Shown here one piece after another: positions 6,600 to 63,440 of a stretch of 64,000 bases of DNA (position 1 is its first letter; the number at the start of each line of letters is the position of its first letter). The stretch is from Ligula intestinalis (lineage: Eukaryota; Platyhelminthes; Cestoda; Diphyllobothriidea; Diphyllobothriidae). The stretch is taken from positions 7,323,839 to 7,387,838 of the forward strand of contig JAYGXS010000010.1 of assembly GCA_036362985.1 (NCBI GenBank). Direction: 5' to 3'. A model generated the notes under the pieces. The model was not told the origin of the DNA. It saw only the letters and a list, made by a program, of their open reading frames with translations, and ran no database searches. The position numbers and the translations under genes were made by a program.

Positions 6600-7535
6600 A
6601 ACAGCCCAGGCTTGCGTATTTTGCACAGCTAGATCCACCGTATAACACAGCTTTCAGAAAATTGGTTGAATAGTTGGTCCCCCAGGGTTAAGGCAGTTTA
6701 AGTTGCTGCGAAGTTCTTGGAATTCTACCCAAAGTCCCTCAAATTAGTGCCGTTTCGAATGGAATTGGTTTTTTACTACAAAACCTGCATAAATGCTTGA
6801 AGGAGGAAAATATGCAGTTCATTCTTGTGGGATGACCTTTTGCCTTTCACGTCTCCATGCCACGCGGTATGTGCAGTATCTTTTCCACATATTTTCTCAA
6901 AATATGTTATTTTTAATTACGTGCACAAAAAATAGGCTCAGTTTCATTTGACAACAGAATCTGACACTAACTCTCAAATGTCCACATATGTGATCTTGTA
7001 TAAGAATGACAAGGGACATAACTAAAGCTCAGGACATTCAGGAACTAGCAAAAGTTCTTCTTTTCAAGCACATGTATGGTATTAAAAATAATTTGTAGAA
7101 TGCCCTTAGGAGACTTGCATTGACTGGCTTCTATTCTAAGACTGGTGAACGGGTTCATGTGAACACAGGGCTGGAATGCGAAAAATTCCCACTGTAGTGG
7201 TAGGGACATTTTGTATGCTCGATCTACAGATATGAGAAACAGACACATAACGAACAGACACGGTATGCTTACGTGCCTGTGGTTAGGTGAAATTAATTCT
7301 GAGGCATATATGTTGGTTATGGTACCATAGAACAGTGATAATGCCTGGTGACAGGGGAAGTTTAAAGTATTTGGCGTCAACTGCACCCTTCACCTTTACT
7401 ATGGGTCAAGAAGACCAGACTGGACACCACGTCGGCTGCTTTCTCCATTGCAAGCCAGAAACACTATTTAACTTATTCTTACGCAATAGTAGACTTTGCG
7501 CGGGTAACACCATACGATCTACCCTTATCTACCTT
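6600..7535 (+). repeat. Left copy of a ~0.9 kb direct repeat
   Basis: Blocks of this segment recur in the same order at about 10.74-11.63 kb. One example is the block with CATAACGAACAGACA and GTGGTTAGGTGAAATTAA at 7246-7293, matching 11427-11475. Another is TTCCGAATG-like sequence near 6752, matching 10890. The offset stays near 4.1-4.2 kb throughout, so these are direct repeats with small indels. Both copies retain a shared conceptual peptide (HITNRHG...CLWLGEIN), which suggests a decayed coding mobile element. They could be fragments of one element family or a segmental duplication; no LTR-type termini were found. Confidence 0.6.
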
Positions 7536-7539
7536 CAGT

Positions 7540-7808
7540 AGGTGCCAAGACAAACTCAAGGAGACCGAGACGGATAAGACTTTTCTTATTTCTACAACTG
7601 CTACCTATCAACACAGCAACGTGTTAGTAGTTCTGATATTGGTACTGACGCTAACATTTGTCAGAGGTGACGCTGATTACACCCAACGCTGGGGCTCACA
7701 AGGCCTTGATCTGGACAAGTGTTTGAATGTGGTTTTAGACTTTTCCGAGTAATAACAGTACGCGCCAGAATTCGTGCAACATGCCCACATATGCGAAAGA
7801 TGGGTGAT
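7540..7808. other. Unassigned GC-richer spacer before the foldback element
   Basis: This segment separates the left direct repeat from the foldback element. It is richer in G+C than the flanks, but I recognise neither a gene nor a repeat family in it. Confidence 0.3.
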
Positions 7809-7810
7809 CC

Positions 7811-8110
7811 TTCGCTAATTGGCATTGACTCAAGTTGTTATACTGATTATCGTAAAGGTTATTTTGAAGTTATTTCAGTCGTGATAGGATGCGAGCTTTT
7901 GAACAAGCTTTTTTCTGACCACTCGCAAAATTAATGTATTGTTAAAAGTAACATCGTAAATAATAAGCATTTTTATTATTGATTCAGCTGTCTGTATAAA
8001 TTAAAGTATATTTTATAGAAAACATGCATGAAAAGTTATTTATTGTACTCGTTTCGTAGAAAATCACGTCTCCATTAAAGTTTAAACTTAAAAAAGGCAT
8101 CTTTCTGTAT
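7811..8110 (+). repeat. Left arm of foldback element FB-1
   Basis: This arm begins TTCGCTAATTGGCATTGACT. It is the inverted counterpart of 9888-10191, whose reverse complement reads GCTAATCGGCATTGACTCAA near its start. Matching blocks continue through TTATTTCAGTC, TTCTGACCACT and TATATTTTAT. A second element with the same terminal sequence and order lies at 62183-62837. The structure is that of a non-autonomous foldback or MITE-like DNA transposon. No target-site duplication could be fixed with confidence. Confidence 0.65.
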
Positions 8111-8385
8111 TTAAAAAAGATTTTTAAATATGAGATTTTTTACGATTGTGAAATTTTGATTCATAGTACATCGTGTCCGTTAATTTATTAATGATTCATT
8201 TTAATGCATACAGCACGATTAGCATCTATTGCAACATTTTATGAGAAATATGTGACTTCGTCCACAAGCCGTAGACAAAAACATACTTTGAACTAAAGAA
8301 AATGAACACATTGCTCAGTTTACAAACCTTGAATTCGAATGTAGAAGTCATTAGGCTTCAAAATTATTTGGCAATTTAGAAACTT
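8110..8385 (+). repeat. Left half of FB-1 central region
   Basis: This segment includes CAGTTTACAAACCTTGAATT at 8318, matched by CAGTTTGTAAACCTTGAATT in the middle of the uninterrupted element at about 62490. It therefore belongs to the foldback centre and was separated from the right arm by the PLE insertion that follows. Confidence 0.55.
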
Positions 8386-8755
8386 TCGTTATCATTTTCA
8401 CAATCCCCAAAAGACGAGGAAGAAGAGGGCATGAGGACGTGGACTGATTTATTTTGAGACTGACGTTTTGGACACTCTCTCGGCTTCATCGTCAGAGTAA
8501 CTGGGCAGTTGTTCCTGTTCAACTGGACTGTTACAACCTTGCTTTGTGTCTGTTCTTATATTCGCGTTTGATGCACAAACTTGGACCTGCCTGATCGATA
8601 CTAATTGACCGAAATATTGATAACTGGTGAGCTCGTTTGATTTCTGCTCACGTATCGGCTGTCGCAAATCAGCACGCTAGCCGATGTGCTCATCGTCGAC
8701 TGACTAGTGTTTACACCCACCTGAGTTGATCACAACCTCATGGGCGCGGCGGTCT
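8385..8755 (-). repeat. Left inverted arm of PLE-1 (PLTR-like)
   Basis: This block is the reverse complement of 9505-9848 with scattered changes. For example, the left arm has GAGGGCATGAGGACGTGGAC and the right arm has the inverse GTCCTCATGCCCTC. Both arms carry the same conceptual peptide, seen as QVQVCASNANIRT in one and KVQVCASSADIRT in the other. Penelope-type elements are known to carry terminal repeats that can be inverted, and this pair encloses a GIY-YIG segment. Confidence 0.7.
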
Positions 8756-8974
8756 GTCTGTTTGTCACAAACACAGTTGTGTTAGAACCATCTTTTATTG
8801 CGTTCAGACACACTGCGGCAACGAAAGTGAGAAAAAAGAGGTGATTAAGTATCCGCATGCTCTATTTCAGGCCACCGGTTATCCTATGTCCTTTTTACGC
8901 AAGTTTTTTTAGAGGCCCCACCTTAAGCTGTCGAAGGGAGAAGACCCCAAGTTCTGACTCACAATCCCCTTTGT

Positions 8975-9415
8975 GAAAAATGTATCAGAGGCAGCTGCTC
9001 GAATCCTGGGACTATTCGGGATCGGTGTGGCTCATAGATCTGAATAAACCATCAGACAGCAAATCATGCAGCCCAAAGACCCACTTTCGTTGACAGAACA
9101 ATCCGGTGTGGTCTACGGCATACCATGCCAAGACTGTGACGCAAGGTATGTTGGTGAAACGGTCAGATGCCTGGGCACGAGATTGCACGAGCATCAGCAG
9201 GAAATCGACGGCAACGATACGCAGTATATGGTCTATGCCCACGTACAGCAGAAGTAACATACCTTCGCCTTTGACAAAACAAGGGTCCTTGCTCAAGCCA
9301 ATGACAATATGGCTAGACTGCTGCTGGAAAGTTGGATTTTGACTGGCACATTCAAAAATTTATAGATTTCCACCCCACCTACCAGGCGTTGCGCAAAAGG
9401 CTTTAGCCAGTTCGA
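8975..9415 (+). pseudogene. PLE-1 GIY-YIG endonuclease remnant
   Basis: The translated frame shows VVYGIPCQDC, then YVGETVRCLGTRLHEHQ. This is the GIY-YIG nuclease core with the CxxC-type pair typical of Penelope-like elements, followed by TFAFDKTRVL. GIY is represented by VYG and YIG by YVG; the catalytic-type Arg (TRLHEH) and the His region remain. In-frame stops occur before and after the core, for example after HVQQK and after TGTFKNL. It is therefore a dead copy. In intact elements this domain nicks target DNA to prime reverse transcription. Confidence 0.75.
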
Positions 9416-9504
9416 ATAAGGCCAACAAGACGGCAATATCAACTCAAGTGTGAATTAAAACCAGCCTTGGAGGTAAAAAGTGGAGAAGCCGGTCAGGCAC
9501 TTAA

Positions 9505-9848
9505 TCACCGCCGCGCCCGCGAGGTTAGGGTCAACTCAGGTGGGCAGGAACACAATTGAGTCGACAATGAGCATGTTAGCCAGCACGCTAATTTTCGACA
9601 GCCGATAAGTGTGCAAAAATCACACGAGCTTACCAGTGATCAATATTACGGTCAATCAATATCCATCAGAAAGGTCCAAGTTTGTGCGTCGAGCGCGGAT
9701 ATACGAACAGGCATAAGGCAAAGTTGCAACTACCCAGTTACTCTGACGATTGAGCCGAAAGAGTGTCCGAGACGTCAGTCTCAAAATAAATTGTTCCATG
9801 TCCTCATGCCCTCTTCTTTGTCGTCTCTGGGATATTGTAAAAATGAAA
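9505..9848 (+). repeat. Right inverted arm of PLE-1
   Basis: This arm is the inverse of 8385-8755, running from a GC-rich CCGCCGCGCCCGCGAGG end to the ATTGTAAAAATGAAATG outer end. It contains an open stretch at 9611-9865 that mirrors the frame in the left arm, so that stretch is best read as repeat rather than a gene. Confidence 0.7.
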
Positions 9849-9887
9849 TGCTATTTGAACCTTGACTCCTTACGCAAACTTTCTTAA

Positions 9888-10191
9888 GGACCGAAAAATA
9901 CCCTTTCTTTTAGTATGAATTTTAAAGAAGGCAAAATTTGCTACCAAACATGTATAATACGTTATATTTTCGTGCACGTTTCTCATAAAATATATTTGAA
10001 TTTATATAGGCAGGCAAAATAAATGATATCAACTCATACTATATATGAAGCTACGGTGTACAGTGCATGCGTTTAGTTAGTGGTCAGAATGAAGCTCGTT
10101 TAAAACCCTCTAGCCTAAAATGACTGAAATAAATTCAGAGTAGCCTACGTAATATTCAGTATTACGACTTGAGTCAATGCCGATTAGCAAA
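9888..10191 (-). repeat. Right arm of foldback element FB-1
   Basis: This is the inverse of 7811-8110. It starts with ACCGAAAAATACCC, the counterpart of ACCGAAAGATACCC at 62573 in the uninterrupted copy. It ends with GAGTCAATGCCGATTAGC. The arm identifies the right border of the foldback and shows that the PLE lies wholly inside it. Confidence 0.65.
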
Positions 10192-10199
10192 AAACTATC

Positions 10200-10735
10200 C
10201 GTGTTTCACATTGCATTTTGCTCGAAATCTGGCACTTACTGTACATATTTAGGAACAAATGTACAGTACAGCTTTCCTTGGTTTCCATTCTGTCACATCT
10301 GTTCATCAGACTGTGTCCGTTTTACCAGGTTCAGACTACAATATGCCTGTAAGAAGTACGTGCCTATACAAAAAATGCTTATTCTATTTATCATGCTTAC
10401 TAATGCCAGCATAAATTATACTATAGTACGGCCTATGTGTGCCTTTTAAAAAAGCAGCACCCAGTATGCACTCCAAATCTGTTTGAAGTAAAATAAATTC
10501 GCTTATGGGCTACATAAGCATTATTCAATAATAACAAAATCCTATTGTGCCTTTATGTCGTAAAGTTTGCCGTCTATAGACTTCATAAGGTCTTCTTTAG
10601 TATTCAACTGCAGTTTGGATTTAAAAAATGTCTACACATAGCCCCTCGATATCAACAGGGAGTGTGAATCTGGTTTTATGCTGTGCCAAGTAATTATCTT
10701 TTTGAGACTCGGAACACATCAGGCCACATGATACC
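10200..10735. other. Spacer with no recognised feature
   Basis: This is AT-rich DNA between the foldback and the right direct repeat. The open frame at 10177-10449 shows no recognisable domain and overlaps the foldback end, so I do not call it a gene. Confidence 0.4.
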
Positions 10736-10739
10736 ATTT

Positions 10740-11630
10740 GCCGTTATCAGGGTAACTTTTAACAGTATATCACTCTATCTTGAGGTTAAAATGCCATCTT
10801 CCGTAGTTGGAAATTTGCGGAGAACTAGTAAAATCAGTTCGAGTCATAAGAAAGCTCTTGGAAGTAGAACCGCATTCAATAAACTTACTGCTGTTCCGAA
10901 TGGGAAAAATTTTAAACTATGGAACAGGAATAAATTATAGAAATATAAAAAGTGAAATTTATTCTTTCTGCGGTGACCTGTTGCTTTTTACCCATCTATA
11001 CCACTTTGCACGTGTTACACCTTTCCAGACATGTTTTCCATATTTTGATGCACAAAATATGTGGATTCTAAAGTGTTGTTACCAGACATATATTCGGATA
11101 ATTTTACAAAAGAATTTGGCACTAATTTCTGGATATCCACATAACTGATCCTTTGTAAATAAGAAGATACATTTTATATGCTCTTAAAACCGTATGCGGT
11201 AGTAAAAGTTTATCATGAAGTACTCCTTTTTTCGTCTTCAAGCATTTGTATGGCAGAAAATACAGTTTCTAGACTGTCCGAGGAAAGACTTCAATTTATG
11301 GGCTTCCATTCTAGGACTTGCAAACGTATTCATGTAAAAATTGGACTGGTTTGCGAAAAATTTCCAGAGCAGTGGCACTGATAGTTCTGTATGCTCGATC
11401 TTCCACATACATGGGCAACAGACACATAACGAACAGACATGGTATTATTTCGTGTCTGTGGTTAGGTGAAATTAACCCCGGCGCGCAGATGTTGGTACAG
11501 AATGGGGTTAAGACGTGCACGAATGCTTTCTTAAAGCAACTATGAATGCTCGGTTGCGGAACAAAAAGACATTCGTCCGGTCCTTTGTTAGACCTTTGTG
11601 CGTAACGGTACCACATTGATTTATGTTCGC
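10740..11630 (+). repeat. Right copy of the ~0.9 kb direct repeat
   Basis: This is the partner of 6600-7535, in the same orientation. The best preserved block is 11380-11480, where ACACATAACGAACAGACA and GTGGTTAGGTGAAATTAA match the left copy. The conceptual + strand peptide CLWLGEINPGA is in the same register in both copies. That motif resembles the NPG-containing start of some LINE proteins, but the resemblance is too short to classify the repeat. Confidence 0.6.
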
Positions 11631-13039: not shown

Positions 13040-13400
13040 TGTGAACGCTAATTACGGTTTATGTTGGTCCATGTTAGTCGGCTGCAGTCTTTTCTACCTT
13101 TCTTTGAGGTGTTTGTACATGCCAGCAAACTCGCTACGCCGGTTGATGCACGAATCATCGGAGTACATGGCATCAAGAAATTATTGGCCATTTCTGGAGG
13201 AGCAAACTCCGACCATGCGTGTTTTGTCCCATGCAAAAGTATGTCCTGTGTCAAGGCAATGCATAGCCACTTCAAAAAAACAGTCATGTCCCTTCGCTTG
13301 CGATTGGTGCTTGAAGATGCGTGTGGAGACAGATCTTCCTGTTTGGCCACAACATACCGTATCACAAGCTTGACATGCAATTTTGTAGATGGCTTCTTTT
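13040..13400 (-). pseudogene. PLE-4a GIY-YIG endonuclease remnant
   Basis: Reading the minus strand gives IYKIACQACD, then CCGQTGRSVSTRIFKHQ, then CLDTGHTFAWDKTRM, then MYSDDSCINRRSEF. This is a PLE-type GIY-YIG domain with its downstream conserved tail. IYK occupies the GIY position and CGQTG the YIG region. At least one in-frame stop (before FLDAMYSDD) breaks the frame. Open frames on the + strand over the same bases are shadows of this remnant. No arms were recognised around it. Confidence 0.7.
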
Positions 13401-13439
13401 ATCGAGATAGCCGAACCTATCCTTAGAATGTACTAACTG

Positions 13440-13700
13440 AGTGCGTAAAGAAACCATCGATTTGTGCGCTACTTTTACTTACTGTTTCTGCAAATGACTT
13501 TAAAAGAGTTCAAAACGTTTCCTTCAGCATTTTGTCGTACAAAAGGACCATCTTGAAGCACTTCACAAGATCCTTTATTCAACCATTCCAGGCATTCAAT
13601 TCACGTTCAAGAAGGAGGATAACAACATATTCCCATTTCTGGATGTTCTTGTGTGGCGATATGCTGACAAAACATTTAAAAAGGTCTGCTTGCCTCGGTT
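13440..13700 (+). pseudogene. PLE-4b reverse transcriptase fragment
   Basis: The + strand frame reads RFLQHFVVVQKDHLEALHK, then STIPGIQFTFKKED, then FPFLDVLVWR. This matches the palm segment of Penelope-type reverse transcriptases from the catalytic YxDD region to the conserved FLDVL motif. The YxDD position is altered (FLQH), and a stop follows CSYHEK, so the fragment is inactive. It points the opposite way to the GIY-YIG remnant just to the left. The two are therefore either separate insertions or parts of a rearranged element. Confidence 0.65.
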
Positions 13701-17720: not shown

Positions 17721-18579
17721 ACATTTACTAACCTTGTTATGCTCTATTCACTTCATTATCAGTGCACTTACGCAGGCCCGATTATAGACTGCTGATTTTT
17801 TTCGCTTTTTAAAGCGTCTAATTTGAGACCTTACAAAGTGTAAGTCGTTTCGATATTTAACTCCGACAGGCACCCTTTGAATAAATTACATAAATGCACC
17901 CATTGTGGACCAAGCAGGAACACGATTAAAAAGTCTGTTTGCCTTTGGACATCTTTCCATTTACCAGAACACTGATGTTACTTCGAAGTATGTTAACTCT
18001 TGTCCGTAAGTAGGAGTTCTCAGAGAGAATAGAAAAAAATTCGATTTACCTTACAAATGACGTATGGATGACTACAGACTTCAAAGTAGAATGCTTATTC
18101 AATAATTACGGAAGAATGATGCCTTTTAATTTACGACACCTTGTTTCTATGGTATGTTTTACTGCACAGACGTATTTTACCTAACGAAAGCGATATTTTT
18201 AAGTGTGAAAGCCTTTTGTTTCTGCTCAAAGAAGACATTATTAGATGCAAGCATTTCAAACAACTGAAAAATGGCCAGCACCTTTGCTTACAGTCTTTGT
18301 CAGCGATTTGGGTACCGCATCTCAAACAGAATATAGAGATTTAGGAAGAATTAAAAGATTGGATCGCTAGGAACAACACTTTTTGACATCCGTCACGGGT
18401 TTTTTATTAGAGACAGGAGCAGAAAGTGGTAGCAGAAAAGGGGTGACACAGAAATACCACCACGGCAAGAAAGGTGTGGCATCGTCTATAGGATGTGGTG
18501 TAGTTATGGACAAAACAACTATGTCGTCAAAATGGGCAGACCTTTCAAGAGGTGAGATGTCGAACACACAACAGCACTA

Positions 18580-19075
18580 CGGCGAAATGATGCAAATCCT
18601 CAAGCTGCAGTTCATTCAGCGAGATCCGTCCACACATTCAAATTTTATCACGCCAAAACTCTCGCAAGAGGTGATAATAGTGTGAGCGGAGGAGCACCTA
18701 AGTTATGGTTCACGGGTCCTTAGTCCATAAACAAATGCAATGACCTACCCAATCCATATTCCCAGCCGACGCTCAATTTGGCTAAAGCGAGTGGCCACTC
18801 GGGGAACGCAGGGGCACCGTGACGTCTTATGCCATCACATTCAATTTCACCATGCGTGATAGAAATTAAGCCCACACGCCGGTATAAATGCAAGTAACTC
18901 GCAATTATCGTAAATTATAGTTATTCAACATAATTGTCCCACAAACACTGCAACTTCCTGTGTGTGCTAAAGTTTTCTACTGAGGTCTCTGATTAAGAAT
19001 CTGCGATGGATGTCAAAATGCTAGGGGAATAAATGTATTGTCTCAGTAATCGAAGTACCTACATCCCCAATACTT
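18580..19075 (+). repeat. Dispersed repeat family 2, copy R1
   Basis: Blocks shared with other copies include TTATGGTTCACGGGTCC, AGTCCATAAACAA, CAATTTGGCTAAAGCGAGT and GGCCACTCGGGGAACGCAG. The 3' part has GCGATGGATGT, then AATAAATGTATTGTC, matching copy R6. An AATAAA close to the 3' limit suggests a retroposed transcript. The open frame at 18383-18685 shares ILKLQFIQRD with ILKLPFIRRD in copy R5, so part of the ancestor may have been coding. Confidence 0.6.
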
Positions 19076-19099: not shown

Positions 19100-20750
19100 C
19101 AGTGCACTGTGTTTTACTTACGATTAAATATACTTTTCCTGTCCACAACAGTGAGCAGAATTGCATACCTGTCCACTGCACATTTTGGTAAGGAAGTGTG
19201 TGTGTGTGGTTAAATCGATTAGAATTACGCATGCGATACAGTCAACACTGTCCATGCCCGAGAGCCACACCTTTGATATGGCTTCATTTTACAGTGGCTG
19301 TCGCTCAATTCCACAATTATGTAAACCTTGCATGAACTAGCAGCTTATGTGGACTTTGTGCCTTCATATAAGACTTGGCAGGTTGCTTTAATAAGACTTA
19401 CTGTCTATCACCAGAGTAGTCAGCGAGGGAACCTAGGTTTTCTTTAAATTTTCATCGGACTATTACCTTCCTATGGGAATGGAGTACAAGGTTAAAAAGC
19501 TTTGGATAATTTTAAATTTTTCTATCAAGCGTGTCGTGGGAACTGGAAAAAGAGGTTGGTAGGAGGAGGGTGGTTATGCGGGAGGGTTTGCTGGATGATA
19601 GCGCCCGTAAGAGCGTTCATCGAATGGACGCCTGGTTCTCACAGTAAATAAACGTTAACAGTTTTGTATCCATCCAACAGAAACGAACTTCACTCCGCTG
19701 CTTAATGCAAAGGGCTAGAAAAAATCTGCTAGGCAGACACTAACGTAGAGCTTACGAATATCAAAGACCTACTTCGAGAGAATGGGTATCCTAGCTGATT
19801 CATCGCAAAAATGGTGGAAAGAGAAATAAAGCCCATCACGCGAATTTTAGAAAAGAAAGCGCTATTTTTAAAAGTCTTCCTTTAAGGTGATGCGGCTCCT
19901 AAAAAAATTCTCTGACCAGACCATGTGACAAACTCCTCCAGCAGCATAAGTTTGTGTATTATTTTCAACCAACCGGTCCTGCATGCGAAGGTAAGGAAAA
20001 CTTGCCAGCTGAGACCACATTCCTGCTCATCTACTCATTAACCTTCTCCTGTTGTGCAGATTGTATGGGTCGCATGAGTTGACACTTATCCATGGCTAGA
20101 TAAAAGGTGAAATAAAGAGCAAAAGCAGAGCAATTATCGCCCTCATTATTGATTTCGGACATCTCGTACACCCCAATGAAGCCATCGAGGTGCATTTTAA
20201 GGTCCCACCAAACTGTAAATGTTCCTGGGTTCGTAATTGAATAGTTGGAACCGAAGGCCTCTTTGTTTATAAGCGTTTGCAATTAGAAGGCTAGCTATTA
20301 CAGTGGGAAATTCTGTGAACAAACTTAGAAGCATGCGTTTGATTACACTTGTTGTGGATTAATAGTATAGAGTGTTATAGCAGATGTGAAAAATTATTTG
20401 ACCCATTTGTGAAATATGCGGCGGCTTTGGTGTGACTCAAACTCACGTCAGCAATTTAAGGCTTTAGTGCAACCAACCTTCTGGTGGCTTGAACTTAAAA
20501 GCAACTACCGAGGGCTTCATCACACACAGAATTTCCTTAATAAATAATACAGAATTATAAAACTGAAAAGCCAGTACGATGGCAGGAAACGCCTGGAGTC
20601 ATTTACCGATTTTTGGTGCAGTCGTGGAAAAAAAACACCTTCGTCGGAGAAACTGGGAGATTACTCCGGACGCAAATGGCCGGGTATGCAGCAGCGGTGG
20701 GGAAGAAAGACGCCAACTCTTAGGTTGCAGCTCACTCTTCAGGACTCGGC
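19100..20750. other. Mostly unassigned DNA
   Basis: Short open frames only, and no recognisable domain. No repeat family could be assigned, apart from the start of family 2 copy R2 at the right edge. Confidence 0.4.
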
Positions 20751-20764
20751 CATATTTTCCAGTT

Positions 20765-21050
20765 TGAGCAGGCCGAAATCGTTACAAGAGGTGAGAACAG
20801 CGTGAGCCGCGAGGTGTTTGAGTTATGGTTCTCAGGCCCCGGTTCATCAACTGGCGCAACGAATTGGCGTTCTTTTACGGTGTACCGAGAAAATTACTGA
20901 GCAGGGAAATCAGTCACGTGGGCAGGACCGGGCGCAGCAATAACTCGGACGACTGTGGGCATAATTTTCCCGCAATTATCAAGCTCGCATCCAACAGTGC
21001 AAGGACACTGAGGCAAATAATGAGCCATCACCGCGCTAATTAAGACGTCA
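20765..21050 (+). repeat. Dispersed repeat family 2, copy R2
   Basis: This copy is closest to copy R3. Both have GTGAGCC then a GAGTTATGGTTCTCAGG or GAGTCATGGTTCTCAGG block, then CATCAAC, GCGCAAC, CACGTGGG and a GACGAC...GGGCATAA/GGGCATGA tail. R2 and R3 diverge from the other copies after the TCATGGTTC block, so they form a subgroup. Confidence 0.55.
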
Positions 21051-22200: not shown

Positions 22201-22579
22201 TTCAAAAGTATTGAGTGGGAATATAAACATATCGCTATTGTCCTTTTACGTTTACAGAGTGACAGTTTTAACCAATACGTAAAGTGAAAATGAAATAAAT
22301 GTTAGTCAGACAAATCGAGAGAATATTTTTATATAAATTCTATCCAATGTCTATTATACAATGACACAAACAGCAAACGGGCACCACAGCAAAATAAAAA
22401 AAGGGCTTTTGTGACACGATTGTCAAATCTCATGTTTAGAGTAAATATCTGCCGCTAGCAGAGAGTGACCAGTAGACGCCAGCCACATAAACGTACTTGA
22501 TCCATGATCAAGACACCCAATCTAGCGTAATTGCCCTCCCTCTTCCCCTTAGTGGAAAGACTTCTATAGACGAGGCCGC

Positions 22580-22795
22580 GTTCCTCGCAAGAGGTTAACA
22601 CCACGTGAGCCACGAGCTGCTCGAGTCATGGTTCTCAGGACCCCAGTCCATCAACAAGCGCAACAATGTTGCCTTCTCATACTGCGTACTGAGGAATAAT
22701 CTGAGCAAAAGAATCAGCCACGTGGGTAGGGCCGGACCCAGCAACAGCTCTGACGACAGCGGGCATGAATATCGCACATGAATCAGACTGACCTA
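22580..22795 (+). repeat. Dispersed repeat family 2, copy R3
   Basis: This is a sister of copy R2. It is followed by ATATGACTAAGGATTTTCGA, a block that also occurs as CTATGACTAAGGATTCTATG near 28928, so a second repeat may be abutted here. Confidence 0.55.
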
Positions 22796-25689: not shown

Positions 25690-26040
25690 GCTTTCATCAC
25701 GCGCAACGGACATCTGACCCTCCGATGTTGGCGAAGGATAAGGCGTTGGCCTGTCCGTTCCGCATGTGGTGACTTGCTTCGGCCAAATTAAATCTCAACA
25801 CCGAATATGGATTTGACAAATCGTTGCACTTGTTTATGGATTTGGGGCCCGTGAACGAAGACTCAAGTAGAACTCGGCGCACCCAATTGTCACGTCTCAT
25901 CAAATTTGAATGTGTGGCCAGGTCCCGTCGAATGAACGGCAGCTTGAGAATCGGCATGATTTCGCTGCACTGCTGACGCTTCTTCGCTTCTGAAGGATTC
26001 TTCCAGTTTTGCCGACATATAACCTTTGCCCGCAACTGCG
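25690..26040 (-). repeat. Dispersed repeat family 2, copy R5 (open frame retained)
   Basis: The minus strand keeps an open frame of 112 codons with ILKLPFIRRDLATHSNL, then FTGPKSINKCNDLSNPYS, then FNLAEASHHMRNGQANAL. Other copies show fragments of the same peptide, so the open frame is probably a survivor of an element ORF rather than chance. I cannot place it in a known protein family. R5 lies head-to-head with R6. Confidence 0.55.
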
Positions 26041-26574
26041 CTAGATCCTGAAGATGAGTCCAGATGTTTCTTATTTTGGCAGTTAGTCGTTTGGTTTCAT
26101 TATCCGACGCCTAATGTTGGCCGCCGGCCCGTGTACGACTCCAAATAAAAGTGCTGTGGGAAGCCAGCTAACGGCGTCTGAGAGAGGAATCTTACTGTAG
26201 TTTTCATTTCAGGCACATCTAAACAATTGGGCCCCGGACGATGGTTATCTTCGCTGTTTGCAAAAACCTACTAGCCATCTTCGGTGTACAGCTTTCTGCA
26301 ACCAAGCTGTCGATATGCGTTTGGTCGGCCATGCTCAGTACACATGACGAGGTGAGGACATGCCGAACACAACTTTACATGATAAATCTTATGCTTGAAT
26401 TTCAGCAAGTACTTATTCCAAAACAGTCCGACTAAAACCTTTGTAATCCCGTGGTGGTTATTTGGACATGGTCACTGAAGTGAGCAGAAATAAAGTAGAT
26501 TATTTGCAAAGATCTGAATTTGAGTGGGAGATATACTAAACATTTGTGGGTGCCTATTTTTTAAATTGTTGCGC

Positions 26575-27075
26575 ATGGGATGAGACCAGACCACACCTTC
26601 AAATTAAATGAGGCCGAACTTCTCACAATAGGGGACAATGGGGTGAGCTGAGAAATATTTGAGTCATGGTTCAAGGGCCACTAATACATAAACAAGTGCA
26701 AAGATATGCCCAATCTCTATTTGCTGTTGCGACTCAATTTAACCAAAGCTAGTCGCCACTTGGGGAACGGAGAGGCCACCGCTGCAGGGCCAGATGGCTG
26801 AGCACTCATCACACCCGAGTGCACCGTGCGTGATGAAAGTTCAGCAGGTCAGAGCCCGCATGCCGTCCAGCAAACTATCCACGTGCAAGAAGGCAACTAA
26901 CGCTTAATTTCGTAGTATGTTTGCAGTTATGACTGTATCCTATAAATACCGCATATTACTGTACATGCATTACCCGATTCTGCTACCAATTTATGCCAAC
27001 GTTTCTGATGATGAAACCGCGATGGATGTAACAACGTCAGGCAAATAAAAGTATTGTCCCAGCGATAGAGTTGTC
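26575..27075 (+). repeat. Dispersed repeat family 2, copy R6
   Basis: Blocks GAGTCATGGTTCAAGGGCC, ACATAAACAAGTGCAAAGAT, GACTCAATTTAACCAAAGC and GTCGCCACTTGGGGAACGGA match copies R1 and R5. The tail GCGATGGATGTAACAACGTC, then AATAAAAGTATTGTCCCAG, matches the end of R1 and defines a common 3' terminus. Confidence 0.6.
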
Positions 27076-38150: not shown

Positions 38151-38204
38151 TAAGGCTACCAGTAAAGTCTTCAGTATCCCGAAGGAAATAGAAGGTTCGC
38201 GATC

Positions 38205-38520
38205 CAGGTAATTGTATGGCTTTTCGAACACCAGATCAATTGATTTATTGTTCTGAGCTTTCAAACTCTTACCGTAGTCCATTCTCAGAGATGAGAAAGC
38301 AACGAAAAAAAGAGGGTAATTATAGTGGCCATAGACCAATCAACTGTCAGAAATCACGAGGTTTTCAAAAGGTTAGATGCAGCAATCGCAAAAGGATGAA
38401 GGAAGAGAGTAATTAGCTGTCGGTGGGGTCGGGGGGGGAATTATATTGGCGTACGCTAATAAGCTGTCAGTGGAGGTGGGTGTCATGAACAGCAATTAGT
38501 GTGCCGCCTTATCACCCAAA
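38205..38520 (+). repeat. Left inverted arm of PLE-2
   Basis: This arm is the inverse of 39128-39445, and the two are well conserved. Shared blocks include ACCAGATCAATTGATT, CAGAGATGAGAAAGCA, CCAATCAACTGT and TGGCGTACGC. Both arms encode the peptide CSELSNSYRSPFSEMRKQ or a close variant. Two similar units, TAGCTGTCGGTGGGG and AAGCTGTCAGTGGAGG, lie in tandem within the arm. Confidence 0.75.
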
Positions 38521-38594
38521 TTCCTTTATCAAAAAAAAGCAAAAGCTGAGTGAACAGATGACGGCCCAGACAAAATCAATCCGAAGTCTGGAGG

Positions 38595-39152
38595 GTCATT
38601 CCCTACATAAAAGGGGTTTTTGAAGCAGTCTCATGACTGTTACAACCTGCTGGCGTAGGCAAAGCCCATCGACCTAAAGCGACAATACGCCGCCAGGTGA
38701 TGCAACCTAAAGGCAGACTGCCTCCTACAGAAAAATCGGCAGTCGTCTACAAGAAAATTTGCCAGGAGGATGACTGCAATTATGTTGGAGAAACAGGCCG
38801 CAAATAGCAGACCCGCCTACACGAGCACAAACGAGCGGCCCAGAGACTGGACCCAAACTCGCAACTGGCAGCACACATCGCAGAGACTGGCCATAACTGC
38901 GATATTCGAGGAGTGGCTATCGTAGGCCGAGGAACCTCAAAAGCCGAAAGGCTGACGCTCGAGGCGTGGTACTCAGATGCCAAATCGGTCAACAGGCATC
39001 TAGACCTGCTAGCGGCCTACAAAGTGTTGCACCATTGTAAGGGAAAAAGGCGTAACGAAGCCAAACAAAAGGCAAGAATGGCAAATGAAGAGGATCCCAT
39101 GAATAACTGGCTAAGGGAGAAAGCATGGTCACCAGGACCCTCTAACGGGTGA
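38595..39152 (+). pseudogene. PLE-2 linker and GIY-YIG endonuclease, nearly complete
   Basis: One frame runs from VIPYIKGVFEA through KATIRRQVMQPKG and VVYKKICQ to DCNYVGETGRK. It continues with TRLHEHKRAAQRLDPNS, HIAETGHNC and SKAERLTLEAWYSD, and ends at a TGA at 39150-39152. It therefore covers the reverse transcriptase C-terminal linker, the GIY-YIG core (VVYKK / YVGETG), the Arg helix, and the downstream WYSD...NRH tail. Only two in-frame stops interrupt it: a TGA near 38634 and a TAG after GETGRK. It is the best-preserved endonuclease in the window but is not functional as read. The protein would nick DNA for target-primed insertion. Confidence 0.8.
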
Positions 39153-39445
39153 CAATGTGCCACACTAATTGTTGTTTATGACCCCACCTCCACTGATAAC
39201 TTATTTGCGTACGCCACTATAATTGCCCCCCAACCCCACTGACAGATAGTTACTCTCTTCCCCATCTTTTTTCGATTGCTGCTTCTAACCCCTTGAAAAC
39301 CTTCCGATTTTTAACAGTTGATTGGCCTATAGCCACTTTAATTGCCCCCTTTTTTGGCTGCTTTCTCATCTCTGAAAATGGGCTGCTGTAAGAGTTCGAA
39401 AGCTCAGACCAATCAATCAATTGATCTGGTTCTCTAAAAACCTTC
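39128..39445 (-). repeat. Right inverted arm of PLE-2
   Basis: This is the inverse of 38205-38520. The minus-strand open frame at 39250-39495 is the mirror of the frame in the left arm and is best regarded as repeat. Confidence 0.75.
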
Positions 39446-39779
39446 TTCCTCGTCCAGTCTTCAATATTTTTCTGCTGCAGAGTGAGGACCTGCAATTTCC
39501 GATGGAACTATGCATCAAACATAAACGTTCATACTATCATGATGCAAGGAAGCAATGATTTGCGAAAAAAGTCTCAGTCGGATTTTTTTTATTCATTTTT
39601 ATCGTGCTGCAGCCTTAATGAGGACCATGGTGAAGTTTTTTTAATTTTTTTTTCAAATATTCAAAGGCTTTTCGTCTATTTATATTGTAAGAGTCATTGC
39701 ACGTTGTGTATATAAGTTCCGCACTTATAACTGCAACCTTGGAATCATCTGCCCATACACGAAACCCGAAAATAACAAT

Positions 39780-46949: not shown

Positions 46950-47395
46950 TGTTTTAAAAACGTGTCCGAGCACGTTGAAAGACGCCTGAGGAAGCATCAA
47001 ATGTCAGTGGCACACAAGTCAGCGAATACTCTGCGAAATCAACTTGTACAAACTGAGGACAGGGTTGGATATTTAGACAGAAACGAAGTCATTTACAGGA
47101 TCCCTTGTGGCGGCTGCAATGCAGTTTATTGTGGACAGACAGGACAATTGACTATCACACGCTTACGCGAACATTAACGAGCAGTTAAGTGGTGATATTA
47201 ATTTTCCTAAGTCACTATGCAAAAAATAGAAACTGGACACCAATTTGCATTGGCCGAAACTTGTATTGCTGGACCTTGCCTATGCAAGAATTGTCGTGCG
47301 TCTTTAAAAGCCATCAACTACGACGACTCATGCATGAAGAGGCACCTTTAATTGGATGCGATATACACCATCCTCAGGGGAAGATATAAAAGGAG
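46950..47395 (+). pseudogene. PLE-3 GIY-YIG endonuclease remnant
   Basis: The + strand reads SANTLRNQLVQTEDRVG, then EVIYRIPCGGCNAVYCGQTG, then TRLREH. After a stop and frame damage come IETGHQFALAET and a weak tail with DDSCMKRHL. The IY / YCG core with the CxxC pair is that of a Penelope-like endonuclease. The Arg helix is followed at once by a stop at about 47174, and the continuation lies in shifted frames, so the copy is dead. No inverted arms were found around it. Confidence 0.7.
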
Positions 47396-52668: not shown

Positions 52669-55600
52669 GTATGCAAAAGCTGACCGACCTGTATTTGTAT
52701 TATTTTAGTTTTTGTTGTCATCTTGTTGATCTACAGACCTATGTATCTTCTTCCTTCTAAGGTGGCAGTTGTTTCAGACTGCGTCTACCATCTGGCATAT
52801 GTCACAGACTGATTAGCCAAAATGATGTCTCGCGTGAGGAATGCTGTGATCTCGGGGGTTTCTTCATGTCCGAGTGGATAACCGAAGAGCAGTATGTCCG
52901 TGATATGCTGCTCGGCAGGGAGGGTATAACGGGATGCGAATATGCCTGCTCCGACCGTGAGTTAACCCCAGCATGGCAAAGTTTCAACCTGTACTTATTT
53001 TAATGCAATTTCGAAAATTATCGAACATTACCCGGCTCCACGATGGCCCCATGCATGTTTTAATTTATCAAATGTTGAAGCTGAGTTCATTGGTATCTCG
53101 AGAATTTTTCTAAAGTCATTATTTGCAGTTCACATAAATACACTAAGGCGTGCAGATAAAGTTGAACATGAGCTTTTTCTCCTAGCGTTAGAAGATGTCA
53201 TACCTGCGTTAAATCCTACATTGCATGGTTAAGGCATTTTTACGTTGTCGATTTGAATTTAGTATGTGCATTTGAGTGCTGTTTCCTCGATATTTTAAGA
53301 TGCATACAAAATGTATTAAGTTAATGAGCACACAAGTTAGCAACGGCATTCTATTCTCTTGGTTAAAACGCCACGTTGCATCCATTGTAGGTCACATATG
53401 ATTGGTCGCTTAAATAATCTCCTGATAAACACAGCTCTGCCATAAGCCGTAAAACAGGTACAGCTTTTGCGCATTAATGTGGTTATGGCAGATAAGTAAC
53501 TGGGTTTCTTGTAGGTAGTATTGATCATCCAACAAACTTCTAGTTAATTCAACACACAGCATTTTATTCTCTTCGTAATTCTGAAAGGAACCTACGAAAC
53601 CTGTAAAAACATCACATGCGACGATGGGTACAAATGCACTATCCAAGGGCATCGAGCAGTCTGTGAATGTTCCACCGAATGCACGGCTCTGGAATACTTG
53701 GACGGTCCAGTGTGCACAACGGACTTAAGAAGATTTAGAAACCGCTGCGATTTTATTCGTGAACGATGCAGAAATCAGAATCAAATGCTTGAAGAGGCCG
53801 TCTGCCCGCCGGATAACAGCGTCTGTTGGCCAGCGAGACGTTACAATACCCCTGAGAGCAATTTCGCCTACGCTGGAATGAGGGACGTCGAACTGGGTCA
53901 AGAATCGGGAAGAAATTTAGTAAGTACTCGTCTGTATGTCGTCTGTATTTGAAAAAATGTATAATGCTATAGGCTTAAGGCCAGAAATAGTGTTTTTGTG
54001 TGTTTATTTGCCATGACTTCAGCAGGTTCCTTATGTGTAAGCAAGAAAACAGTCCTAGATTGGCAATTAACTCTTCAAAATTAGTCGGTCATTTAGAAAT
54101 GTCCAAAACCCTCAAGTGTTGTGTAAAAAACTTGTGTCCGGGTGCACAACTCAGTCATTGAAATGCCAAACAGTTGGTAATCTCCTATGTCGAATTTTTT
54201 TGCATATGTTAATACAGGTTCACTGATAGCTAACGGAACTCATTCGTCCCGCCCGGGCTTGTGTCCTTTCTCGAGCAGCCGCATAGTGGCAAGTTGTCTA
54301 GGCAGATATTATTGTCAACGAAGAGAAGGGTGACTGGAGTGAACATTTCTGACTTATGAGCCATCGTCAGCCAGTCAGTGCCAACCAAATGTTCTGTTCA
54401 ACACAAAACTTGGTCTCCCAACCTTTTCGATCAAATGTCTAACGTTCTCACCATTGAGCTGCGGGCTCGTCGGCTTAGTTCGGGAAACATTAACACTCCT
54501 TGGCGAACTTTTACGGGACGCTTATGTTCTTGGTTTGATAAACGGTCGACACGGCGACCTTCCCCCACCAACGGCATAAAAATCAATTAAGTCTTTATTC
54601 AGTAAAACGAATTACTTAAGTCAGCCTGAGAAAAAAACGCCTGGTCATACTAAAAGTCGTAATTTAAGACCTGCAAACCCACCACTGCAATAGATAATGA
54701 TTGGCATTTTTAGTGACAGAGCTACAACTTTATTGTAGACTTGCATAGTATTGTGTGATAGGAAGCCATTTTTGATGATAATGAAACAAATCCTGGTTGA
54801 TCTAGCGAATGGATATAGTAAGCTCGTGAAAGGAAACGTAATAAGGAAATCCTGGAGCTAACTATTTGCGTTCTCGTCCATTGTTGAGAGCCCATTTATG
54901 GCTCTTCACTGGGGCATATTAAAATTGGTCTCAGGTTGTCTAGTCGGCCATGATTTCAAGTTCAATCTATGTTTTTGTCGGCGAGGACTTTGCAGTTACC
55001 TTCATTCTCCTAACGTTTAGTCCAATTTCTGAAAATAAAGGCGAAAATTCGCTCAATTTTTGGACTGTGACAAGATAACTTGCTTGCCATATTTGTAGTG
55101 ATTTTTAACTATCTGCTTAGTCAGCTATTGCAGCTGTATTCTTGCAATGTTTTAGAAGGTCTGCTCGAGGTCTCAAGTCTGTCTCATTCGGCTGTTCAGT
55201 GGAGAGGCAGGCTGTGAAGAGCCAAACTGGCTGGGACCAACACGCACTACATTTGGTCTTTCTGACCTCGATTTTGGTAGCCCCACAGAAGACCTCTCTG
55301 AGTGCACTAACGGCCAATTCGGGGTGCCTCTCTGTGCCACCAATAATCAGACCTACAGGAACCAGTGCGAACTCAGAAAGGCCAGCATACGACGTGGTAT
55401 GGAAATCCGAATAGCCTATCTGGGGGCTTGCAAAGGTAAGTACGGTACTTCTGCTAACAGAAATAAATATGTCGTAGTAGTCCTCATGGTCAGGTGGTTA
55501 CTCAAAGGCGCTGATGTATTTGCAAGTAGTTCCTCGCCTTTACTGAAAAAAAAACGTCCTATCAAAGTAAAAAATGGCCAAACATTGCATTTTGGCAGTA

Positions 55601-58600
55601 GTAATTTGAGTAGTGCACCCAATATACGTTTAGTTCAAGCAATTTGCCCCATAGAAACGGTGGTTATAGGGTTTTATGGGTGACGAATAGGGATAAACAG
55701 TTGAATATATTCGAAAACTGCAAAATATGTCTTGAGTTTACTGTTTATAGAAAGGTTGATGATTTATGTCTGTATATTTTCCTAATTTGTGTTAAAATAA
55801 AACATATTACCGGAAAGCCCGATTATAAAAATGCACGTTTTTGGAAATTCCTGAAAGAATGGGAATGGCGGTTAGGAGGGCGTCTACGTCAACTTACCTG
55901 AGGTCAAACGTCCAGTTCTGGAGTTGCATTTGTATATTTTGCGGCGCTTATGCCGCGCATACTTTCGACTTGCATGGCGAACACCTTAATCCCAACGTCT
56001 GCTGGAAACAAATTTAAACTCCAGGCTTCTTACAAATTTCGTTTGCTGCCTATTCTATTACCACCCACAAAACCCCTATAACTATCCTTTCCTTAGGACA
56101 TCATGTTGGGACAAGGTCTATATGAGGTGCATTAATTGAACCTACCTTATCCTAAAAATTAACGTGGGTTACATTTGGGAATAGACCATGCTTGAAGTAG
56201 AAAATAAACATTTACAACACTGATCAGGGCGTACCTTTACGGGGAATTTGGATCTTTTCTACTAAAATGCACTACTTTTTATTTTATCTTCACCATTCGG
56301 AAAAGATAATGAGTGTATACTTAAGGGTTAAATCGTCAAGTTCTAGTCTCAGTGGAAGCAAGTCGTGTCTAAATTCAGGAAGCCTGAGCTGAAATTAATT
56401 ACCGACCTTTCTCTTTGCCTCCTAGATGGAGTAATCAGGCAGTCATGTTTGAATTATTCTCATGGCGTGAAATCATAATAAGCATGGAAATTTTTAACTG
56501 GTATCTTAAAAGCAATTTGCAGAGGCTGAGGCAGTCAGTATGTTAGCGACGAAAGGTCATTTTTTATGGTCCACTTGTTCTTGGTTGCTCAAGATGATTG
56601 TGATTAGCAATGCATTCACAATTGTTCCCCGCCGTACTGAGATGTCTGTGGCAGAAATACACTTTATTGGGACTGACAGGTTCGTTTACACTGGCAATAA
56701 ATGCCAAAATTGATTTAACAAGCGTACAAATATTCGCAAAAAGATGATTTATGTTTCGTTAGCTTCAAGTTATTAAACAAAGGCACCGGATAAACCGTCT
56801 CCCTTTTTTAAAATGGCTTTTTTTTATTTTCAGAGCTTAAGTGAATAAATTGGACATATGTGAAGAAACAAGTATTAGTCTTTCTTAGTTCACGAAAAAT
56901 AAAAATAGGTTCGACGGGAAAATAGACGTTTGACAGGTGTGGCGAAAATCAGGTCAAGTGCGCCCATGTAGCGACAGTCTCGCCGCAATTCGCTGGCCGG
57001 CCGGCTCGCTCATTTTCCCCCGTAACCCAGTTGGCGACAGCTGCCGATCTCGACCTCTTTTCCAACCCCCCCAATTCCGAACGTCTGGTTCTGGTGAAAG
57101 TGGTTTGCATTATGAACATCACGGAGGCAATAGCATGCTTCGCATGCGGGTTCACAGCACTATTGCATATTTGCGTGTTTACTAGGATCTCGCCACGCAA
57201 ATTTTCCGACAGCAATTATTAAAACACCCCGAGAACTAGTTACACTAGCACCCTTCGAACAACAGAAAAGCGAACAGGCTCCTCTCGTATCCTATATGAA
57301 TGTGCCCGATTGCAGTTCCTTTCAGCAAAAAAAAATCATAATAATCCGATAGGTTGGAATTTGTGTAGTAGGATCGCAGACACAAATGATTTGGAAGGCC
57401 GTTTGGTCTTTGAGATACTTCGAAGTAGCGTTTGCTGTCAGGTCTTCTTTTATTTGAATCATTTGTTTCCCGTTACAAAATTCAGACACAACAGGACTTT
57501 TTAAATTCCATGAGTTTCGTGACAGCTTCCTATCGATGCCTGAGTTTGGTAAAGGGTGGAGTTGATTTTTCGCAGAGTTGCATGGCATACCAGCAACGAT
57601 CATGGTTCATTGTTACCCATAATAAGTGAACGACACTGCACTTAGTTACTGCATACGAAGGAAAAGAGGCAAGGAAAGCAAACGAAAATCACATGGGGCT
57701 CAGTTACCAGGATAATTGGAGGTCAAAGGGTTCGATCTGGTCCTGCTTGAATAATTATTGGAAAAGCTGTTTTGATGTCGATAGAATAACTGCTGTCTAG
57801 CACATGCTTAGTAATTGAAGACCGTGATACTCTACCTTCTTGCTTCAAAATCCGGTCAGGCAAGTGAACAGCGGCCCTGGCTGCCAGTTGCTTCTGCGTA
57901 CGTCCCAACGTACTTGCATCCTTTTCCCGTTCTACTGGAAAGCTTTCAGTAGGACTCACGATGACGAATTTTGCTGCGTTGTTGGTCCTTTCTGTGGAAC
58001 AGCGCAACCGTCGCTTGATTGTATTCGAAATTTCATCACCTTTAATGTGTAAGCATATAATGAGGAGAATTTTTAGAACTGACGGTTCTATAAATGCTTG
58101 CTGCAGATAATTGCTGTTCCTCTGAATAAAACGTGCAGGATAGGCACAGTTAAGTAGGTCTATCTTCATGTGGTGAAGCTCTGCAGGCACGGCCTCACTG
58201 AAGCATATGTTCCTTGCCAGTTTCCACCGAATTGACACAAAATTCATCAAATGTAGGTACTGCCTTATCCACGAATTATCATGGACGACCGAAATCCCTG
58301 TTAAACCATCTTCCTCTCGAAACATGAGGGCGTCCAGTAAGGATAGCTTGTTAAGCTGCTCTTCAATTTTTGCATGTACGCTATTCATAAAATTGCGGAT
58401 GTCATCGACCTCTTCCTCAGAATCAACAATAGTGAATATGAATGTAATGTAATATAATTTTGTCATATTAAGTCTAGATGACGCCGTTTCGTTGACATGA
58501 CCCATGTCAACATTCGTGAATGTGAGCCTTAGTGGACTGTCCCTTGCGACTCCATCCATTTGTCTGAAGAGTTGCCCATTAAATATAAGTTGAACATTTT

Positions 58601-59305: not shown

Positions 59306-59904
59306 GTTAGTTTGCATCGTACTTCGTGCTTTGCTCTTATCAATATTTTCAATGAAACTGCATACTTTGAGATGCTGCGCAAGTTATTGCAAGAGAAAGA
59401 TAGATAGCGAGAGATGGAGAAAAATGCTTTATTTTTAAGGCAATTTTCCAAGTTTTTCTAGTAAAAAATGGCTCCATTCATGGAGGTCAACAGAAATGAT
59501 AATAAAATAGTCAAAATTTAAAAGTTTACATTAAATTTACATCGGCTATAGAAACAGGTCAGATTTCGACCGCGGAAGATCCGTTGTTTCACACTTGAGG
59601 TAGCATGCTAGAAATGGAAGTATATATTGCTGATACGCCTATGTACGGCAAGAAATAAAACGTAAGTGTCGGCGCATATAACGGGGAGATTTCGCAACCA
59701 CATATATATCAAGAAAATTATTGCGGAAATAAGTAGGTGCATGCCATGGAGGAAAATGGAAAGGCCATGACTTCTAAGGGCCATACCCTATATTTTACTG
59801 AAAATTTGACCAACGGAATAGCCGAACTTTTCGTTGTTGCATCATGCAGCAGCAGAAACCTCGACAAAATCCGTGTCTCAGTTTAACATCATTTCTTTTA
59901 TGAT

Positions 59905-61330: not shown

Positions 61331-61771
61331 GTTCAGGTTTTTAATCTCCAGATAAATTAATTTCTGCTCGCTGTATATATCAGTATATATAAGTTCTATA
61401 GGCATAAACCGAAATTGTAAGTGCATCTTTGCATTGAAACCCGTCAACCCAAACGAACTACGCACCTACTGCTGCAGGAAGTCTTGAGTAGTATACATTG
61501 ACGTTGTTACTTACCATACTAACAGACTAACAGCGGCAAAATACTGGCAAAACACGTGTCTGGGCCAATTAGCAAGTACCTAGTATGGTAAGATACAACG
61601 TCAATTTATACTACTTAAGACTTCCTGTGGTAGAAGGTGAATATTTCGTTGGGGTTGACTGGTTTCAATGCAAATATACACTTACAATTTCGGTCTACGC
61701 CTATAGACCTTATATAAAGTGATATATACCGCGATCAGAAATTAATGTCTCTGGAGATTAAAAACGTGAAC
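61331..61771. repeat. Foldback element FB-3
   Basis: Arms of about 190 bases at 61331-61520 and 61582-61771 are inverse copies. TTTTTAATCTCCAGA at the left mirrors TCTGGAGATTAAAAA at the right. AACCGAAATTGTAAGTGC mirrors an ATACACTTACAATTTCGGT block, and GGAAGTCTTGAGTAGTATAC mirrors TACTACTTAAGACTTCC. The 61-base centre has CACGTGTCTGGGCC. The structure is MITE-like. It lies within intron 5 and could form a long RNA hairpin. Confidence 0.75.
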
Positions 61772-62182
61772 GATGTGTTTGTTTGTAAACGTTAGGAAAA
61801 TAAACATTATAGTTCCAGAGCACACATTTTCATCTAGTGGGAGAAAGGTGGATGGCGAATCCGCAAAACAGTGATATACTCATCCGACCCCTCGAAATCT
61901 CACGTGAGGTCATCGGTATGTAAATGTTGCATGACTCACTACACATGGAGCACAGACGGGAGCTTAAAACCTGACACCCGTTTTGCTCACCTTAAAAGCG
62001 AACCAACATGCTGCTTTAACGATGAATCATCCAAAATTTGCATGCAGCAGACTGTACGTTGGTCAGTTGTGAATATGATACAGTAAGCCCACTTGAGCTG
62101 AAAGAGTCCACCTAACAACTGCATATAGAGTACGGCCTTAGGTTAGTGTAACATGCATATATATGCCAATTGTTTTTACTTA

Positions 62183-62837: not shown

Positions 62838-63440
62838 AGACTATCAATATTTCGCATATTTTGGCATATAACACGAATTTTACGCAGAACTGTAGACTTC
62901 AGAAGCAAGTGTCAAATGCTTTTCTTAGAAGGACATTGCCCAAATAGGGGGCCCAGTTTTTCGATGCAATGACTAACCAATTTATTCAGTTCTATTTAAT
63001 GAATTTTATTGGCTAAAACTGGGGAAAAGTTCCAAACTTTGACCGGTTTTTGCATGCATTTCCGAAGAATGCATAACCTTGATGTGCTGACTGCGGACTT
63101 GATTGAATCAGAATACCTAAGCCTGAATGCCCACCTACCAAAAGTCATTAGTCCATGAACTGGTGACATTCGTCTAGCGAAACTCAACCAAGACCAAAAT
63201 GCTAGCTGTCGCTGAACGAAGAAATAAAATTGCCATGGTAGCCGCTTACTCGCAAGTGTCAGGCTTTCGACCGAAATAAATCAGCAGTGGCCTGCAAATT
63301 TTCTATATTTCTTGACAATGGGCTCAAGTGGATGCTTTAAAAACCAAAGAAATATGCAACTGATCCTATTAATCACCTAACCAACTTCTCCTTTAATTAA
63401 GTTTCATAGCCGGCCCAATTGTTCGTGGACTTCGAAGTGA
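62838..63440. other. AT-rich stretch, nothing recognised
   Basis: No exon, repeat family or RNA recognised. The minus-strand open frame at 62996-63187 has no domain. Confidence 0.35.

Follow-up and report, generated by a model that had tools for sequence, protein, structure and literature searches.

Introduction

Penelope-like elements (PLEs) with a GIY-YIG endonuclease also have a telomerase-like reverse transcriptase, direct or inverted pLTRs, an optional tail of ∼30 bp, and a short target duplication. A hammerhead ribozyme motif is frequent in PLE pLTRs but not defining. The GIY-YIG fold itself is shared with some structure-selective nucleases. Drosophila Foldback elements have very long inverted repeats with arms of short tandem repeats, and are flanked by 9-bp duplications. 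Long-TIR Tc1/mariner-type MITEs, in turn, are recognized by a TA duplication and CAGTA-type ends, and depend on the transposase of a relative for their movement.

The Penelope elements Pen2a and Pen2 of Adineta vaga have pLTRs in inverted orientation, one of them with an optional 31-bp tail, and duplications of 8-10 bp (PMC3846280). Insertion of a PLE into a different mobile element is also reported; in one instance, a target relative of 76% identity was used to infer the empty site, and that insertion had no duplication (PMC3846280). For Poseidon from Anolis carolinensis (PAc), the purified protein cleaves and extends both strands in vitro and prefers A/T-rich DNA, a published preference of PLE proteins (PMC11167929). 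In the same source, two adjacent RNA start sites of reverse transcription bound the tail, and the start site used in vitro does not differ by strand. Because the start site is equal between strands, an element with one tailed and one untailed end is not predicted by the PAc data (PMC11167929).

Here we describe a PLE that lies within an inverted-repeat element of the cestode Ligula intestinalis. In common with Pen2a and Pen2, it has inverted pLTRs, a one-sided tail, a target duplication and a location inside another mobile element. In contrast to those cases, the PLE here entered an inverted-repeat DNA transposon flanked by TA, and its target duplication measures 12 bp. The locus bears on PLE target choice and on how inverted PLE ends are built.

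A PLE interrupts one of two foldback copies

The window (the whole stretch analyzed, 64,000 nt of contig JAYGXS010000010.1, positions 7323839-7387838, assembly GCA_036362985.1) holds two copies of a foldback (FB) element, one of them interrupted by a PLE. The relevant features are as follows; consensus positions refer to the FB family consensus described below.

7756-10241: FB-1 as a whole, made up of 7756-8391 plus 9876-10241 and interrupted by PLE-1
7756-8391 (+): left part of FB-1, comprising the left arm (consensus 1-374), the loop and the start of the right arm to 637; blastn to the consensus, 82% over 7756-8386, and junction alignment
9876-10241 (+): right part of FB-1, the right arm, consensus 626-995; blastn to the consensus, 80%
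8392-9875 (+): PLE-1, a 5'-truncated Penelope-like element of 1484 bp, absent from FB-2 and, at the same place, from 40 scored FB copies; bracketed by a 12-bp duplication
8392-8753 (-): left inverted pLTR of PLE-1, tail-less, 77% to the reverse complement of 9507-9846
9048-9362 (+): GIY-YIG endonuclease end of the PLE protein, a remnant with stops; PF01541, and tblastn to other PLE remnants of the window
9507-9846 (+): right pLTR of PLE-1, 77% inverted match to 8392-8753
9847-9875 (+): tail of PLE-1, 29 bp, at the right end only; aligned by eye and with MAFFT to the tails of other copies
8380-8391 (+): target duplication, left copy, AAACTTTCGTTA
9876-9887 (+): target duplication, right copy, AAACTTTCTTAA
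62128-62892 (+): FB-2, a PLE-free relative with its left arm partly deleted; blastn core 62143-62879, outer ends read from the sequence
62553-62564 (+): unfilled target site in FB-2, AAATATTTGTAA, present once; alignment

The insert has two traits of PLEs, namely inverted pLTRs (77%) with a 29-bp tail at one end and a short target duplication. Over 9048-9254, the endonuclease remnant scores 17.8 bits (E 0.0042) against PF01541, short of the curated Pfam threshold of 22.6. PLE-1 is 5'-truncated, and it yielded no reverse transcriptase. The hammerhead, a motif easily lost in old copies, was absent from the Rfam results for 7700-10320 (three matches, E up to 10). Relatives of PLE-1 are present in the genome (40 scored of 2312 first-look candidates).

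A first-pass annotation of this DNA had proposed that FB-1, and not FB-2, holds a PLE and that the arms of the two copies match. Both proposals held. PLE-1 occupies 1484 bp of FB-1 alone of the two, and blastn of FB-1 against FB-2 gave three main pieces, with E between 1e-21 and 1e-16, plus two short matches (E 1e-8 and 2e-6). Genome matches likewise place both copies in one family (best 40 of 4300 first-look candidates scored; 644-Mb assembly). The arms first outlined for FB-1 are real, and the element extends beyond them to the limits given above. The alignment of FB-1 with FB-2 that had been suggested yielded the exact junctions and the target duplication. As for the claim that FB-2 is the empty version, the target site does occur there just once, yet FB-2 is imperfect as a reference because ∼200 bp of its left arm are missing (consensus 150-358). 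It is thus a PLE-free relative rather than, on sequence, a clean empty reference.

A direct repeat of 75% identity flanks FB-1, at 7063-7317 and 11237-11496, ∼4.2 kb apart. Near FB-2, a 441-bp palindrome (81% self-complementary) lies at 61331-61771; in the blastn comparison within the window it did not match FB-2.

The foldback family

We derived a majority consensus from 20 rows: 18 of 30 loci, FB-1 minus its PLE, and FB-2. The 12 loci left outside were partial, rearranged or redundant, and include L001, which is FB-2 itself. The consensus has a 995-bp core, with arms at 1-374 and 622-995 and a loop of 247 bp at 375-621. The arms, each a TIR of 374 bp, are 99.5% identical to one another. Column conservation is 0.72-0.73 in the outermost 20 columns and drops to 0.39-0.40 immediately outside. 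TA is found at both flanks in 16 of the 20 aligned copies, indicative of a TA target duplication; FB-1 has TA on the right (10242-10243), while its left TA position reads AA.

Based on the TIRs, the TA and the ends, we call the family a putative long-TIR Tc1/mariner-type MITE. It shares with such MITEs the TA duplication, CAGTA-type ends and no coding sequence noticed in FB, but differs in that its 374-bp TIRs make up three quarters of the element. The very long inverted repeats, able to fold back, are reminiscent of Drosophila Foldback elements, whereas the duplication is TA rather than 9 bp. Tandem repeats numbered none in 7700-10300 (FB-1) and one 20-bp pair in 62100-62920 (FB-2). The TA duplication and the near-absence of tandem repeats do not fit a Drosophila-type Foldback element. 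A terminal subfamily is also apparent, with the outermost 77 bp deviating (CAGTAGATTCCCTATCTCATG...) in L013, L014, L022, L027 and L029.

Insertion site and relative ages

In the FB consensus the target, AAACTTTTTTAA, is present in single copy at 626-637. This site falls in the right arm (622-995), 4-15 bp inside it and beside the loop, and therefore not in the foldback centre, where the first-pass annotation had placed the PLE; insertion at the loop centre is ruled out. The 12-bp copies on either side of PLE-1 have diverged and are identical at 10/12 positions, a match with a chance of ∼6e-5 for one fixed pair of 12-mers in one fixed register. Both have C at the eighth base, found in no other row of the 20-row alignment; in L015 and L016, a C lies one base beyond the eighth position. 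Duplications at other PLEs match at 11/12 (PLE-2), 12/12 (L065 and L066) and 11/11 (L033) positions. Windows of 12 nt with at least 11 A/T account for 7.5% of the FB consensus, and this kind includes the sites in FB-1 and in L023. The L066 site (ACTGATTATCGT) is 8/12 A/T, with no extreme A/T run.

Nesting and sequence divergence agree that the foldback came first and the PLE second, the order given in the first-pass annotation. The arms of PLE-1 differ from each other by a K2P distance of 0.206 (95% 0.157-0.263), or ∼0.10 per arm. FB-1 differs from the consensus, which includes FB-1, by 0.22 (0.189-0.253), and its own two arms differ by 0.366. Because ∼0.10 per PLE-1 arm compares with 0.22 for FB-1 to consensus, the foldback would be roughly twice as old as the PLE.

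Under the opposite arrangement, the PLE arms would belong to the foldback family, an alternative named in the first-pass annotation, and FB-2 would have lost its insert. We found no point in support of it. PLE-1 is seen at consensus 626-637 in 0/40 scored FB copies (best 40 of 4300), the 20-row alignment is closed at the site in every row but FB-1, and the 12-bp duplication brackets PLE-1. As far as the 40 scored copies go, the PLE arms are ruled out as a foldback component, and we give the idea virtually no credence. Very probably, FB-1 was a decayed copy into which a PLE later inserted, at the inner edge of the right arm, by target-primed reverse transcription. The nested insertion is ordinary in kind, and it is real and well resolved.

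Most of the PLEs compared have one tailed end

A second PLE in the window, PLE-2, has its tail at the opposite end from PLE-1 and was used for comparison.

38178-39455 (+): PLE-2, inverted pLTRs, tail at the left end
38166-38177 and 39456-39467: PLE-2 duplication, 12 bp, 11/12 identical, AGTCTTCAGTAT and AGTCTTCAATAT

In total, 13 PLEs bounded by inverted pLTRs were compared, with tails scored by eye on printed junctions. Twelve have a tail at exactly one end (PLE-1, PLE-2, L033, L015, L029, L053, L057, L064, L065, L066, L074 and L075), one has a tail at neither end (L026), and none has a tail at both. If ends were independent, this would be expected with P 0.0016. The duplication is clear in 9/13 of these PLEs, the exceptions being L053, L064, L074 and L075. 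L032 has the same shape but lacked a recognizable duplication, and was excluded for that reason.

These insertions resemble the PAc case in their A/T-rich target; in PAc, a tail lying between two start sites and cleavage and extension of both strands have been seen in vitro. Yet 12/13 insertions here are tailed at exactly one end, whereas the PAc start site is strand-independent (PMC11167929).

A course of events that would account for the locus can be outlined. FB-1, a TA-flanked long-TIR transposon copy, would have been decaying in the genome before the PLE arrived. A Penelope-like ribonucleoprotein would then have cut the inner edge of the right arm, in an A/T run and with a 12-bp stagger, and insertion would have proceeded by target-primed reverse transcription. 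Both cut strands may have primed reverse transcription from the 3' region of the PLE RNA, in which case the two genomic junctions would both be the PLE 3' end, facing opposite ways. Initiation at the outer site would have given one of them its tail, and initiation at the inner site would have left the other without. Finally, the two first-strand cDNAs would have been joined internally. Our confidence is evenly balanced on the joint occurrence of two-strand priming, outer and inner start sites giving tailed and untailed ends, and internal joining of cDNAs. Taken together with the literature, the one-tailed pattern is most simply read as two-strand priming with one start site per end. The joining of two antisense cDNAs should leave palindromes, and these are seen only weakly: the inner junction of PLE-1 has 7-bp arms, and 27 of 1500 random places reach at least 7, while PLE-2 has 3-4 bp. 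If the one-tailed rule holds, it would constrain the order of strand priming.

Some copies consist of little beyond two inverted PLE pLTRs (L015 204-589, L026 234-716, L032 2089-2569 and L029 253-813). PLEs therefore themselves create foldback-like sequences in the genome. In L064 (G000:C9:21007607-21010141), two long PLE bodies face each other and may represent a single insertion whose two arms are both long.

PLEs in other foldback copies

With 2312 first-look PLE candidates and 4300 FB candidates, the genome is able to test both over-use of FB hairpins and the one-tailed rule. For the PLE side, 38 copies of the PLE-1 family were drawn from the 40 scored of 2312 candidates (28 with 1.5-kb flanks and 10 with 600-bp right flanks). 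FB-1 was set aside, and the sample was unselected for FB save for 12 FB bases at the query ends. L051 and L062, with flanks that match at 97%, go back to a single insertion that was duplicated, and were counted once; a further scored row, taken as the second arm of L064, was not counted. Four of the 38 copies have FB on both sides.

L053: in an old FB (63-66%), consensus 191-288 and 282-445
L066: consensus 9-100 and 87 onward, with a perfect 12-bp duplication
L068: consensus 7-39 and 801-989, the FB middle missing
L078: consensus 971-795 and 780-12; next to the PLE lie 567 bp of DNA of another kind

L072 has FB-like DNA (58%) near its PLE but not flush with it, and was not counted as lying in FB.

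Elsewhere in 29 loci, FB-like DNA makes up 1059 to 1279 of ∼86,925 bases, a rough estimate of 1.2% without and 1.5% with two FB-like pieces in L068. Thus 0.46-0.56 of the 38 copies would be expected in FB, and four were observed (P 0.001-0.002). At a share of 3%, as suggested by some other stretches (the window itself has 2.7%), P rises to 0.027 for four copies and to 0.105 for three. As a control, copies of one abundant LINE-like family were scored over ∼200 bp of right flank each, and FB was found in 0/39 (39 of 40 scored copies, the window's own excluded and duplicates not removed). The difference between 4/38 and 0/39 is not significant (Fisher one-sided, 0.054), nor is that between 3/38 and 0/39 when the same right-flank test is applied to both (0.115). 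The flank of L086 may miss the true junction, because the match stops 116 bases before the end of the pLTR; without this copy the count is 4/37, and Fisher against the LINE gives 0.051. Judged from these sequence counts, a modest enrichment of the PLE-1 family in this FB family, on a small sample, is likely.

The survey of other foldback copies proposed in the first-pass annotation turned up PLEs from the FB side as well. Two of the 40 scored FB copies (best 40 of 4300) hold other PLE pieces, both at positions other than that of PLE-1. L033 contains a 589-bp PLE with a perfect 11-bp duplication (ATAAATTTAAA, consensus 242-252), and L023 contains 113 bp of a PLE 3' end at consensus ∼365-368, with no clear duplication. 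Eight of the 40 copies, each with a missing arm, were examined with extended sequence. When PLEs of several kinds were counted by density, 3 of 30 events lay inside FB compared with 5.2 expected (p 0.47). This count leans against interrupted FBs because its FB copies are the 40 best, unbroken, matches; events were merged according to the distance between them, and a 26-base match within the insert of L038 was not counted as inside. Further inserts were also seen: nine of at least 200 bp in eight of the 40 copies (L005, L007, L010, L021, L035, L038, L039 with two, and L040). The L007 insert is by eye a LINE 3' end and the L010 insert a small inverted-repeat element; the L038 insert is less certain. 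The labels LINE, RTE-like and pogo-like given to these inserts are by-eye readings of translations or ends.

The first-pass annotation suggested that hairpin-forming DNA is a preferred PLE target, and one could imagine that the GIY-YIG endonuclease cuts the stem of an extruded FB hairpin. The family-level excess of 4/38 over 0.46-0.56 speaks for such a preference, as do three further PLEs, of various kinds, that lie in FB elements (those of FB-1, L033 and L023). Moreover, all six resolved insertion points (consensus 87-98, 242-252, 282-288, ∼365-368, 626-637 and 780-795) fall in the arms and none in the loop (0.18 by chance); the arm side of these points is ambiguous by symmetry, and L068 is not among them. 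The insertion points of FB-1 and L023 mirror each other, both at the end of the stem that faces the loop. Yet the points are spread along the arms, and the other four are not at the tip, so a clean hairpin-tip preference is rejected. At the empty sites of PLE-2, L057, L065 and L075, no inverted repeat was found within 600 bp; none was found at that of L064, where 62 bp of left flank were examined, and at L074 a palindrome lies 168 bp from the empty site. This test is weak because, at L053 and L066, it also missed the FB arms on the two sides of the insertion point. Also weighing against hairpin targeting are the roughness of the FB share, with the higher P values at 3%, both comparisons with the 39 LINE flanks, and the density count. 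Among the open-licence papers listed by literature searches, none was seen to deal with a PLE preference for foldback or hairpin DNA. We consider hairpin targeting unlikely, and a hairpin cause is at most putative, since the family-level counts do not separate hairpin shape from A/T-rich sequence.

Another idea is that FB is a generic landing site, A/T-rich and harmless, struck by many mobile elements according to their activity and age. The nine other inserts of at least 200 bp in eight of the 40 FB loci, besides the PLEs in L033 and L023, speak for this idea. The LINE-like family, with FB in 0/39 right flanks versus 3/38 for the PLE, fits it less well, though this difference is not significant. 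We regard the generic landing site as a serious possibility, slightly short of probable. FB was probably chosen more for its A/T-rich stretches, and because insertions there are tolerated, than because a folded hairpin was recognized. A joint account can also be drawn up, in which the PLE family seeks FB arms (7 to 9 times their rough share, from 4/38) through folded or easily melted DNA and the GIY-YIG endonuclease, and two-strand priming uses each start site once to leave one tailed end. This we find more doubtful still than hairpin targeting on its own.

Other features

Besides the remnant in FB-1, eight more GIY-YIG or C-terminal PLE remnants occur in the window, at 13256-13451, 18454-18708, 20565-20828, 22569-22631, 25984-26115, 26592-26669, 38682-38885 and 47028-47189. 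PLEs, of more than one kind, are abundant in this genome. Among FB inserts, that represented by L042 and L039 (G000:C1:109857027-109858433) is 1.4 kb long, ends in short inverted repeats of its own and contains an open frame of 224 codons; the insert looks pogo-like by eye, which Pfam did not confirm. A protein search with the window frame at 57723-58700 gave no match at E 0.001. Frames with Kazal-type domains (Pfam) are present at 53548-53952 and 58933-59310, and are perhaps exons of one gene.
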